Positions 7,258 to 42,095 of a stretch of 55,725 bases of DNA are shown here, piece after piece. Numbering within the stretch: the stretch's first letter is position 1; every line of letters begins with the position of its first letter. The position numbers and the translations under genes are program-made. The notes beneath the pieces are model-generated. The model made no database searches. It saw nothing but the letters and a program-made list of their open reading frames with translations, and had not been told where the DNA came from. This DNA is from Globomyces pollinis-pini (lineage: Eukaryota; Chytridiomycota; Chytridiomycetes; Rhizophydiales; Globomycetaceae), in contig MU621187.1 in NCBI GenBank assembly GCA_025399215.1, positions 2,032 to 57,756 of the forward strand. Direction: 5' to 3'.

Positions 7258-8907
7258 ATGGGGAAAGCGACTATTCCTATTCCAAAGGAATGTGTCGGTA
7301 TGGTTATTGGAAAAGGTGGAAAGAGTATTAAGGAGTTGAAATCTACTGTGGGAATTAAATCGTTATACATCTCTAACTCAAATCTGACTATGCATGGTTC
7401 AGAGTTCGGTATAAACTTAGTTAAACAGAAAGTACGTAATCTAATTGAAAATGCTATCGAACAATCTGGCAGAGTCCATGGCTACGTTCCAAGTTTCAGT
7501 GGTAACATGTATATGTTAATATCTTTAGCAATGGTTCTTGCATGTCAGCCAAATGATTATGTAACTTTGAATCCTACCAATCTTGAGAATCAATACACAT
7601 TGCGGTATGTGGAAGCGGAAAGAGATTACGAATCAGACGATTTGGCTGAAACGATGGAGAAGTTGCACATTAGTACCAATTTGTTTTTCCTTGGTGAGAT
7701 GGCCTACATTGCTAAATTGGTCAATTATATTGAAGGCTTAGATTCTCCTGATCAGAAAAATTTAAGATTGGCAGTAGAATTTGGCAAATCTAGTTTAGTA
7801 ACAAAGCAGTTTTCAGCGAATTCATTAAAAGCTCAAAACCTATTCAATAGTATTAAATCCAGAATGCAATTTACACCGATTGGACAAGATACTGCCGCGT
7901 TTGAAGAATTCCTCAATAAAGAAGGCAAATATCAATTGATACATGAAAACAAAGTAGATGTTGCTCATCTGGTGCATATACCATCAAACACTCGAAAGGA
8001 ATTGTTTTTGAGAACTACAAATGACGAGTTTACATCAGAATGGAATATCTGGAAAAAGATTATTGCTGAAGTGTTACAATCAAACAATTATTATGATTTA
8101 TTTGGTCTAGCACGAAGTTTTTCTGATGCAGAATTGAAAATATCATTTTTGATATTGAAGAAAAAGGTCCATCCTAAAGGTATTCATTCTGCTCAATGTT
8201 CCTGATTGCTAGGTCTACAATTTTTTTTCTAATTATATTAGGTTCGAATGTTGTCATTAACGCTAGATAATTTACACCCTGAGAGTATTGTGGCATTCAA
8301 AATAGTTGAAAATGCGTATGAAATTTTATCGAATAAGATTTTAAGGCAAGAATATGATGAAAAGTTAAAAAAATCCGAATCCAAAGTACGTGACGAGCTA
8401 GCGACTGCTTTATTATTGCACTCCACTCCACCAATTATTCCTTATGCAAAAAAATATGTCTTTGATACTGGCAGAGAAGCAATAATTAATCTCGTTGCAA
8501 TCGACCCGCCAGAATCCAATGAAGTTACTTTTGACTCAAGGTTGATGGTGCGAAAGCGCTGCGTTTCTTTGGTAGATCAAACACCGGAAAGATTACAGCA
8601 GTATTCAGAAGCATGGGATAAAGCATCCGGAGATTTTATTGATCCCATAACTAACGAGACGTTGCAGATCAAATTAGTTCGATATCGAACTATTAAAACA
8701 TATTCAGATGGACACTTTAAAATTACCATGAAGAAAGTGATCAATACAGAAACACCAGATCAGACCATTTGGACTGTAACTTTATCTTCATATGGGGTGA
8801 AAGAGATGATCGCGTCTGGCAACCTGCATCAATTACAGCATGAAATTGAATTGCTAGTTGATGAGAGCAATCGAGTAATTGATTGGATCAACCAAATCTT
8901 CCAATAA
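7258..8907 (+). CDS. KH-domain protein with internal J-like domain (520 aa)
   Basis: Exons are 7258-8179 and 8267-8907, separated by an 87-nt intron made of three units. Residues 5-68 form a KH RNA-binding domain with a canonical GxxG loop (VIGKGGKSIKEL). A ~200-residue helical region follows. Residues about 279-335 resemble a DnaJ domain: YYDLFGLARSFSDAELKISF, then VHPKD in place of HPD, and AFKIVENAYEILS...RQEYDEK. The extra Lys within HPD would be expected to abolish Hsp70 stimulation. The C-terminal ~190 residues (KRCVSLVDQTPERLQQYSEA and beyond) are unassigned. I know no standard family with this order. It may be an RNA-binding co-chaperone-like protein. Confidence 0.8.
8180..8266 (+). 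other. Tandem triple intron (33+29+25 nt)
   Basis: Three GT...AG units, 8180-8212, 8213-8241 and 8242-8266, follow each other with AG|GT at both joints. Only removal of all three restores the J-domain frame (VHPK|DNLHPESIVAF). Stopping after unit one or two hits a stop codon. Confidence 0.85.
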
Positions 8908-9126
8908 AACCCGTTTGTTTGCAACCATATAATTTTTCCTTTAAGTTTATGAAAGTATCTTTCGAGACAGAAACCTTTATTCTGACTTTAATTTGCCTTT
9001 CCCTACTTTTCTTCTCTCGTTCTTCTTTAGTTTTAGGTTGGTCTTCATATCCATTCCTGACCCTAGTCTTTGTTTTTGGTTTTCTTTTCTGGATAATTTA
9101 CTTTCATTTTTAATCAAGTATTTACG

Positions 9127-9844
9127 ATGCCTGTAAATTAGTCATTTGCTAACCTTGAAGGTATCTTGCATTTCTTTGTTCATTTATTACATAGGTTTAT
9201 CATTCTGCTTTTAATGAAGATGTCACTGCCAGACAACTTGGCAACTTACCTATTTTACCTTTCAAATCAAAACAAAGAGGTTTAGCTCCTGCTCCAGGTA
9301 TTTCATTTCTTTTAATAGTCAGTCGATCCTACTCAGGATGATATTATCGATGAAGCTATTGCTTTGTTTAAAGCAAACACTTTCTTCAGAAACTTTGAAA
9401 TCAAGGGAGGTGCAGATCGTCTGCTCATTTACTTGACTTTATATATTTTAGAATGCTTAGGAAAGTTATCTAAATTACCAAACGCTGTGGAAGGAAACAA
9501 AATCTTATTCACACACGCAGTTCAACAGTTCCCTCTCCCTGGTATACTCTATTATGTCACTAATATCTAGGAGATGCAACATTTCCTTTAAATTCTATGT
9601 TTGAAAAACCACCAACACGTCAAGATGCTGGTATATATTTCATTTATTTAATTAGTTAGAATTCTTGAAAGCATATTGGACACAGATGCGACAAGAAACT
9701 GGTGTGAGATTAATTGAACGTATATATCAGGATGACAAGCCTTCAAAATGGTGGATGTGTTTTGCAAAACGGAAGTTTATGGGCATGACTGGTACTTAAA
9801 TTGTTTTACTTATTCTTTTCTCAGGTGTTGGTACTTTTCAATAA
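9127..9844 (+). CDS. ARPC3: ARP2/3 complex subunit 3 (p21-Arc), 179 aa
   Basis: ARPC3 is a core subunit of the ARP2/3 complex that nucleates branched actin. Exons are 9127-9132, 9195-9297, 9323-9541, 9571-9630, 9660-9791 and 9825-9844; introns are 62 (28+34), 25, 29, 29 and 33 nt. The first exon is only Met-Pro. Family landmarks in order: [80 protein letters not shown] and the C-terminal [16 protein letters not shown]. Length equals that of animal ARPC3 (about 178 aa). It is convergent with DDX41 downstream. Identification is secure. Confidence 0.97.
9133..9194 (+). other. Tandem double intron (28+34 nt)
   Basis: The units 9133-9160 and 9161-9194 join as AG|GT immediately after the second codon of ARPC3. 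The strongly conserved N-terminus (MP|VYHS) fixes both outer boundaries. Confidence 0.85.
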
Positions 9845-40226: not shown

Positions 40227-40531
40227 TATTACTTATGAAATTGGATACCGTTAATAAAAAATCTCCAGACAATGATTAAAAACGCGTTCATATCTACTCG
40301 TAATGAAGTATTAAACATCAGATACAAAGAAACTACCAATTTCGATAGAGAACCTACAAAATCGTGTTTGCAATTCTATTTCCATTAAATTCTAATGACT
40401 CCAACCAATCCAAATTCCTAGACTAAACAGGGAGACTGACAATCGTCTTTTCGTCACTGTTAAAATTTAATTCTTTTTCCTTGTGTGTGTCTATAAAAAA
40501 TTCAAGGTTCAAATTTTACCCTTGTCAAAAA

Positions 40532-42095
40532 ATGTCCACACAAGCTGATAGAGCAAAAGTACTTACACAGTATCGTAAGAAGCTACTGGAACATCGTGAA
40601 ATTGAAGCAAAAGTTAAAGAATGTAATTAGAATTTGATGCAGTTTAATACATGGAATAGTACGATTAGCATTACGATCATTTGAAAAAGATTTCGATAAA
40701 TCCGAAAATGATATTAAAGTAGGTGCTACCTAACGATACTGATTCGATTTGGATTTATAGGCTTTACAATCCGTTGGACAAATTATTGGTGAAGTATTGA
40801 AACAATTGGATGAAGAACGATGTAAATGAAATGAATATTTACATCATAGTCATTGTCAAGGCATCTAGTGGTCCTCGATACGTGGTCGGTTGTAGAAACA
40901 AGGTGGAGAAAGATAAATTGATTGCTGGGGTACGAGTTTCGTTGGATATGACAACATTGACAATTATGAGAATTTTGCCTCGTGAAGTCGATCCTTTGGT
41001 TTATAATATGAGCACAGAAGATCCTGGTGATGTTACATTTACTGGTATTGGTGGTTTATCCGATCAGATTAGAGAATTAAGAGAAGTATGGAGGTTCTTT
41101 ATTTATATTTTAGGTAACTATTGGCCCTTTTCATTTTAGGTGATTGAATTGCCATTGATGAATCCGGAATTATTCTTGAGAGTTGGTATTAAACCACCTA
41201 AAGGGTATTGTGTTTTTATTCATTGGTTAGTGTTTTGTTGTACGGTCCACCAGGTACAGGAAAAACACTTTTAGCAAGAGCCGTAGCATCTACTTTAGAG
41301 TGTAACTTTTTAAAAGTTGTATCATCTGCTATTGTTGATAAGTATATTGGTGAATCTGCCAGACTTATTCGTGAAATGTTTGGTAAATTTGAGATTTTGT
41401 TTTATATTCCCAGGTTACGCAAGAGAACATGAACCTTGTGTTATATTTATGGATGAAATAGATGCAATTGGTGGAAGACGTTTTTCCGAAGGTACCTCTG
41501 CAGATCGTGAAATTCAACGTACATTGATGGAGGTAATCATACAACTACAATATCCATCATTTACATCGACATCTCCATACTCTAAAAATGTCCAAACTAA
41601 TATAGTGTAGTTGTTGAATCAAATGGATGGATTTGATTCACTCGGCCAAACAAAACTAATCATGGCCACAAACCGTCCTGACACTCTCGATCCTGCTTTA
41701 TTGAGACCTGGTCGACTTGATCGTAAAATTGAAATCCCACTTCCAAACGAACAAGGGCGATTAGAAGTTTTAAAGATCCATGCATCCAAAATCACTAAAC
41801 ATGGAGAGATTGGTAACTCATAGGATATTCCTTATATCTAGATTATGAAGCTATTGTCAAACTAAGTGAAGGATTCAATGGTGCTGATTTAAGAAATGTT
41901 TGTACAGAAGCAGGTATGGTGTTCAATTTCATTGATAACTAGGAATGTTTGCTATTCGAGAAGAACGCGAATATGTGATACAAGATGATTTTATGAAAGC
42001 TGTTCGAAAGGTGGCATCAGCCAAGAAGCTGGAAACCAAATTAGATTGTAAGTATACTTCGAAATTTTAATACTGTAGCTAATTTCCGAGGTTAA
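40532..42095 (+). CDS. RPT4: 26S proteasome regulatory ATPase RPT4 (PSMC6), 392 aa
   Basis: One of six AAA ATPases of the 19S base. Exons are 40532-40622, 40660-40718, 40761-40821, 40850-41085, 41140-41204, 41231-41382, 41414-41532, 41611-41812, 41842-41913, 41943-42047 and 42079-42095. Introns are 37, 42, 28, 54 (28+26), 26, 31, 78, 29, 29 and 31 nt. Landmarks: N-terminal coiled coil, [31 protein letters not shown], Walker [27 protein letters not shown] (Walker B), [40 protein letters not shown] and [17 protein letters not shown]. The terminal exon (SNFRG) replaces the usual short C-terminus and is the least certain part. Confidence 0.96.
41086..41139 (+). other. Tandem double intron (28+26 nt) in RPT4
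   Basis: The units 41086-41113 and 41114-41139 join as AG|GT. Removal of both joins QIRELRE to [12 protein letters not shown], invariant in the family. Confidence 0.9.

Follow-up and report, generated by a model that had tools for sequence, protein, structure and literature searches.

This study analyzed a stretch of 55,725 nucleotides (nt) from the chytrid fungus Globomyces pollinis-pini (Chytridiomycota, Rhizophydiales; contig MU621187.1, positions 2,032 to 57,756 of the forward strand), hereafter called the window, in which several genes carry arrays of very short introns that adjoin one another without an exon between them. The assembly (GCA_025399215.1) comprises 18.5 megabases in 459 contigs, and the typical intron in this genome is approximately 28 nt long. 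Twelve arrays were located in the window, and all 27 of their units are complete GT...AG introns joined at offset 0. A preliminary description of this DNA had reported that eleven introns split exactly at an internal AG|GT. These were confirmed, with GT...AG units throughout, but the list was incomplete because it lacked the triple array at 36601-36692 on the minus strand.

The KH/DnaJ gene contains a triple array of 33+29+25 nt (8180-8212, 8213-8241, and 8242-8266, plus strand), which is supported by its GT...AG units and by the score of the encoded DnaJ domain. Removing all three units gave a DnaJ match of 50.1 bits, compared with 42.1 bits for a two-unit parse and 43.3 bits for the parse made by our gene finder (44+25 nt at 8198-8266); the array is therefore a triple and not the 62-nt double initially described. 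Gene finder calls and GT...AG units together support double arrays in ARPC3 (28+34 nt; 9133-9160 and 9161-9194, plus strand), in a DDX41-like DEAD-box helicase gene (29+29 nt; 11497-11554, minus strand), in a putative SEC27/beta'-COP-like gene (33+32 nt at 27668-27732 and 28+28 nt at 27951-28006, plus strand), and in a putative beta-lactamase-like gene (30+29 nt; 6202-6260, minus strand), as well as the triple array in the gene at 33849-36771 (29+33+30 nt; 36601-36692, minus strand). The SEC27 and beta-lactamase labels are those of the preliminary description. The gene finder and homology support a triple and a double array in PRE4, which encodes proteasome beta-7 (28+30+33 nt at 37892-37982 and 29+27 nt at 38446-38501, plus strand), and a double array in RPT4 (28+26 nt; 41086-41139, plus strand).

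The last two arrays, both of 29+34 nt on the minus strand, occupy the two copies of a duplicated gene (2365-2427 and 52238-52300); they were recognized by their GT...AG units, and the gene finder made no call there. Three substitutions separate the two arrays, none of them in a GT, an AG, or the joint. Because the gene copies are 93% identical, retention of the array in both counts for little. The putative name of this gene, RPAIN, comes from the preliminary description only; the Pfam profile PF14768 gave no match, but its control was silent as well. The range of 8180 to 41139 originally given for the arrays holds for most of them, whereas the three minus-strand arrays at 2365-2427, 6202-6260, and 52238-52300 fall outside it.

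A gene finder written for this analysis combined coding potential, stop codons, the GT-AG rule, and learned donor, branch, and acceptor signals. It was applied to a sample of 345.7 kilobases (kb), consisting of the window and 29 stretches of 10 kb (contigs C1-C29). With a flat intron length prior of 18-150 nt, the called introns formed a sharp peak at 24-34 nt above a low flat background. GTA accounted for 91% of the donors and TAG for 76% of the acceptors; the branch site was YTNAY, whose A usually lay 7-10 nt before the 3' end of the intron, and the commonest exon end upstream of introns was AG. In array mode, units were permitted to adjoin without an exon between them, and the full intron penalty was charged for each unit. 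Rfam gave no match within the window.

The results revealed that the arrays are numerous and occur only at gap zero. Under the strict setting, 18 arrays (13 doubles and 5 triples, with 23 joints) were called among 816 intron sites. When the joint was moved by 1 to 15 nt, the calls were 0, 1, 1, 1, 0, 1, 0, 2, 0, 0, 0, 1, 0, 0, and 0 joints, respectively, compared with 23 at gap zero. The part of the sample outside the window, which is free of the examples in the preliminary description, contained 11 joints in 8 arrays, compared with 0-2 at other gaps, and a looser penalty yielded 30 joints in 22 arrays among 904 sites, compared with 0-3. The loose set includes a five-unit array in a kinase gene (stretch L002). 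Total array lengths ranged from 54 to 138 nt. Ordinary exons of 1-14 nt were called only five times in the sample. The arrays lay nearer the 5' ends of their genes than single introns did (mean relative position, 0.28 vs 0.48; 22 loose-set arrays, p = 0.0015). A shuffle test covered 37 called introns of 44-74 nt that are flanked by supported coding sequence at either end. Of these, 8 split at AG|GT into two units of the accepted length of 22-37 nt, compared with a mean of 0.9 and a maximum of 5 in 500 shuffles.

Searches of the whole genome, in which the gene finder was not used, produced a similar result. The pattern TAGGTAN{17,28}TAGGTAN{17,28}TAG, corresponding to units of 23-34 nt, was matched 200 times; the same letters at the wrong spacing of 37-48 were matched 6 times, and with one base inserted between TAG and GTA at the joints they were not matched. 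The preliminary observation is thus real and holds across the genome. The first 100 of the 200 matches merged into 72 arrays, of which, within the matches listed, 55 had two units, 10 had three, 3 had four, and 4 had five. TAGGTA...TAGGTA pairs lay 22-36 nt apart in 91 of the 100 cases listed out of 421, spacings of 10-39 nt being allowed. Reversed letters gave 57 matches vs 200 for the triple-anchor pattern, 65 vs 6 for the wrong spacing, 26 vs 0 for the 1-nt spacer, and 569 vs 421 for the TAGGTA pairs. Because reversed words differ in frequency, this was not adopted as the main control; the 569 reversed pairs indicate that a bare count of TAGGTA pairs is no proof and that the spacing is the informative feature. 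A strict genome-wide pattern requiring CTAAC in both units had no match, the branch site being no stricter than YTNAY. Extrapolation from the 8-12 arrays per 290 kb outside the window suggests a genome total of approximately 500-800 arrays; the window, with 10 arrays called in 55.7 kb, is richer than the sampled rest and was excluded from this estimate.

All units must be taken out for the encoded proteins to be obtained, and homology fixes the outer borders of arrays in several genes (RPT4, PRE4, DnaJ, and kinase). Residues 7-387 of RPT4 align without a gap to the solved RPT4 chain 6epc_L, a region spanning both the 28+26 array and a 78-nt intron. The public Globomyces protein P0213 (331 amino acids) also lacks the RPT4 array and is truncated by reading into a later mini-intron. 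It ends early at the 29-nt intron 41813-41841 because this intron went unrecognized, indicating that the annotation of this genome loses mini-introns. The derived PRE4 protein is 100% identical over 258 amino acids to the public Globomyces predicted protein P0001; aligned with solved beta-7 chains, it is gap-free at 37892-37982 and has a one-residue gap near 38446-38501. With both units removed from ARPC3, the Pfam family P21-Arc was matched from residue 1 (244.1 bits); because the array follows codon 2, homology supports well only its 3' border. The DDX41-like protein matched DEAD (143.5 bits) and Helicase_C (102.7 bits), and its array is located at residue 134.7, just ahead of the DEAD match (147-325). 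Removal of the five-unit kinase array gave 147.5 bits, compared with 136.5 bits for a model keeping part of it. All nine distinct array-gene proteins that were scanned matched a Pfam family. The array lay within the matched domain in six of them (kinase, PMM, ARPC3, Exo70, Tfb2, and PHAF1) and beyond it in three (Clat_adaptor_s, DUF2838, and DEAD), whose hits name the gene but do not fix the array borders. In the 22 loose-set arrays as parsed, retention of any unit or set of units led to an early stop, a result that is partly by construction; the sole exception was retention of the second unit by itself in the L002 kinase array.

The units resemble single introns in length and in splice signals. 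Unit length averaged 30.0 nt (standard deviation [SD] 3.3, n = 41), compared with 28.5 nt for single introns (SD 2.8, n = 771). The mean donor score was 3.24 at inner joints, 3.16 at outer ends, 3.78 in single introns, and 0.66 at random GT; the corresponding acceptor and branch scores were 4.75, 4.54, and 4.71, compared with -0.53 at random AG. A YTNAY motif in the expected position was present in 121 of the 172 array units from the genome-wide search, compared with 635 of 848 single introns and 62 of 172 units after shuffling. Among the 60 arrays in which no neighboring units are alike, a set independent of the gene finder, YTNAY was kept in 94 of 140 units, compared with 42 after shuffling, including 42 of 60 first units and 38 of 60 last units. 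A depletion of stopless introns with lengths divisible by three (36/230 vs 187/541) was set aside as evidence because the gene finder cannot easily call such introns.

Not all long introns are arrays. Beside the 18 strict arrays, 24 non-array introns longer than 44 nt were called, of which 14 were 57-95 nt and 10 were 106-150 nt, and some of them may be false calls. In the 57-nt intron 28132-28188 of the SEC27-like gene, AGs end at nt 5, 11, and 57 only, and in the 78-nt intron 41533-41610 of RPT4 they end at nt 73 and 78 only; judging from homology, the latter is certainly unsplit. These two stand as exceptions, as the preliminary description had listed them. The 70-nt intron of the CENP-A gene does contain AGs, which end at nt 27 and at nt 41, but GT follows neither of them, and homology does not fix the borders of this intron. 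The preliminary headline that long introns are concatenations was too strong in view of the 24 other long introns and the unsplit RPT4 intron. The unsplit 57- and 78-nt introns may be fused former arrays.

The arrays consist of abutting complete mini-introns of 25-37 nt, and we consider it probable that these are excised one by one and that the arrays originated by tandem duplication. Because every unit is an ordinary mini-intron, we infer recursive excision, one unit at a time, through 0-nt exons. A spliceosome working by intron definition over approximately 28 nt would remove one unit per reaction, and because the first AG lies only 7-10 nt past each branch site, one reaction per unit would be the simplest course. 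If unit 1 left first, the exon would come to lie directly before the second unit's GT; if the second unit left first instead, the sequence serving as its upstream "exon" would end with the AG that closes the first unit, the same dinucleotide in which exons most often end. Either order would lead to the same messenger RNA (mRNA). The preservation of branch sites in first and last units alike in the 60 arrays with unlike units backs this stepwise course. The preliminary proposal of stepwise splicing through zero-length exons thus fits the presence of a donor, branch, acceptor, and normal length in each unit, so far as sequence can indicate. The exon junction complex protein Mago is present, so the brake on re-splicing known from other systems may exist here.

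Among the alternatives, the chance occurrence of AGGT in ordinary introns of 50-90 nt is exceedingly improbable: shuffling does produce such splits, but at 0.9 in 37 against 8 observed, and the 23 joints (0-2 at shifted positions) and the 200 genome-wide matches (6 and 0 in the controls) speak against it. The arrays might instead be removed in one reaction joining the outer donor to the last acceptor, with the inner AG|GT sites being idle relics of duplication. The mature mRNA would be identical either way, and the unsplit introns of the SEC27-like gene and RPT4 indicate that such lengths can be spliced whole. However, the first AG past a good branch site is normally used as the 3' site, and the 57- and 78-nt introns have no AG in mid-intron, although the 70-nt CENP-A intron has some. 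Moreover, inner sites score like outer ones, in a comparison biased by the gene finder, and arrays of unlike units keep the branch site in first units (42/60) as in last units (38/60). On this evidence, removal in one reaction is improbable.

We further compared the units with one another in the first 100 of the 200 genome-wide matches, which the pattern restricts to GTA donors, TAG acceptors, and unit lengths of 23-34 nt. Adjacent units were more alike than the 99th percentile of single-intron pairs at 17 of 100 joints, distributed over 12 of the 72 arrays (rank test, p = 1e-6), whereas only 0.9% of 675 pairs of neighboring single introns of one gene exceeded this level. The likeness of adjacent copies was graded, from identical to barely alike. 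When 20,000 pairs of units were drawn at random from different arrays, the best of them reached 0.43 (identity, 1.0). The recognizable tandem copies in the 12 arrays indicate that some arrays grew by unit duplication. Judged by this likeness, tandem duplication is the source of a minority of arrays; for the remaining arrays this origin is likely but not proven. If the duplicated segment were exactly as long as the intron, the mRNA would stay the same, but tandem copies of any other extent would add exon letters or break the intron; selection would therefore let only exact copies accumulate, which would explain the gap of zero. Later selection would retain each unit, since lost sites would risk unit retention. 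The preliminary description had suggested, as its other possibility, repeated intron insertion at AG|GT joints. Such insertion of introner-like or reverse-spliced introns at AG|GT proto-splice sites beside existing introns would be compatible with the 83 of 100 adjacent pairs at or below the 99th percentile, which have no clear likeness, and with exons ending in AG before 8 of 18 arrays compared with 228 of 771 single introns, a difference that is not significant (p = 0.19). By contrast, the graded series among adjacent copies and the absence of a dispersed family among units of different arrays, as compared within the first 100 of the 200 matches, speak against it, and in 12 of 72 arrays the evidence favors tandem duplication instead. 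We regard it as a tentative and rather doubtful source of the arrays.

Several points also weigh against unit-by-unit excision and tandem origin. Splice signals and normal lengths are favored by the gene finder, which hardly calls introns that can be read through; for this reason, the strength of the sites, the length of the units, and the number of early stops in the 345.7-kb sample are partly by construction. The similarity set was defined by the pattern alone, and the location of each of its arrays in a gene is presumed. Among the 30 adjacent pairs of the 345.7-kb sample, just one exceeded the 99th percentile and 4 exceeded the 95th (rank test, p = 0.01). The unsplit 57- and 78-nt introns make one-step removal possible, so that stepwise removal is not forced. 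We lean, with some reserve, towards describing the arrays as intron satellites, in which a functional mini-intron multiplies in place like a minisatellite and forms trains of true 0-nt exons that an intron-defining spliceosome removes one unit after another.

Gene finders that demand an exon between introns would turn an array into one long intron or break the gene. The arrays would offer a compact system in which to test the order of recursive splicing and its limits, and they illustrate a concrete in-place route of intron gain by tandem copying without a change in the mRNA. If true, intron satellites would represent an intron multiplication invisible to the protein and a natural case of recursive splicing without exon definition.

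The window contains other repeated genes. At 42765-49835 (plus strand), five tandem paralogues have, by eye, a signal-peptide-like start and KR-flanked GPPSTLIADHPELAKR-like repeats resembling a kexin-processed peptide precursor, and each has at least one called mini-intron. Three tandem copies with 77-80% DNA identity are located at 12067-15706 (plus strand); their open frames resemble a multi-pass membrane protein by eye, and the gene finder made no call. A duplicated block at 21098-25466 (four segment pairs, 81-91% identity) contains small secreted-looking genes and cysteine-rich genes, which we take to be PLAC8-like. By eye, the intronless open reading frame at 53230-55086 (plus strand) carries a P-loop-like motif; at the other end of the window, positions 405-562 hold a partial relative (89% over 158 bases).

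The arrays were compared with known systems. In stwintrons, described in ascomycetes, the donor, branch site, or acceptor of an outer intron is split by an inner one, which must leave first (PMC5639578, PMC9024468). Like stwintrons, the Globomyces arrays are complex fungal introns that would be removed in consecutive reactions; the arrays differ in that no splice element is interrupted, all 27 window units being complete, and either order would be workable. Introners insert copies into many genes (PMC9860276); new introns by copying are common to both systems, but in Globomyces the likeness is between neighbors. Ciliate ultra-short introns of approximately 25 nt are similar in size (PMC5014332), and a search of that article found neither tandem nor zero-length in it.

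The same geometry, with complete U2-type introns adjoining each other, is described as abutting U2 introns, which PMC6616335 names among two types of complex intervening sequence; of the two references cited there for this type, one is a Drosophila study and the other reviews recursive splicing. No fungal, ultra-short, or arrayed case of abutting introns was found in the searches made of open papers. Ratchet points, known in Drosophila and also in mammals, juxtapose AG|GT, leave a 0-nt exon in the mRNA, and lead to stepwise removal (PMC8605326). The Drosophila examples are located in introns of approximately 50-73 kb, and their 0-nt exons need a cryptic RS-exon for recognition (PMC8605326). 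The Globomyces arrays share the juxtaposed acceptor and donor inside an intron. They differ in that the units are approximately 28 nt long, with up to five in a row in arrays of 54-138 nt, and in that the stretch past each joint is the next intron. Because abutting 28-nt introns leave little room for a cryptic exon, the joints in Globomyces would be genuine 0-nt exons.

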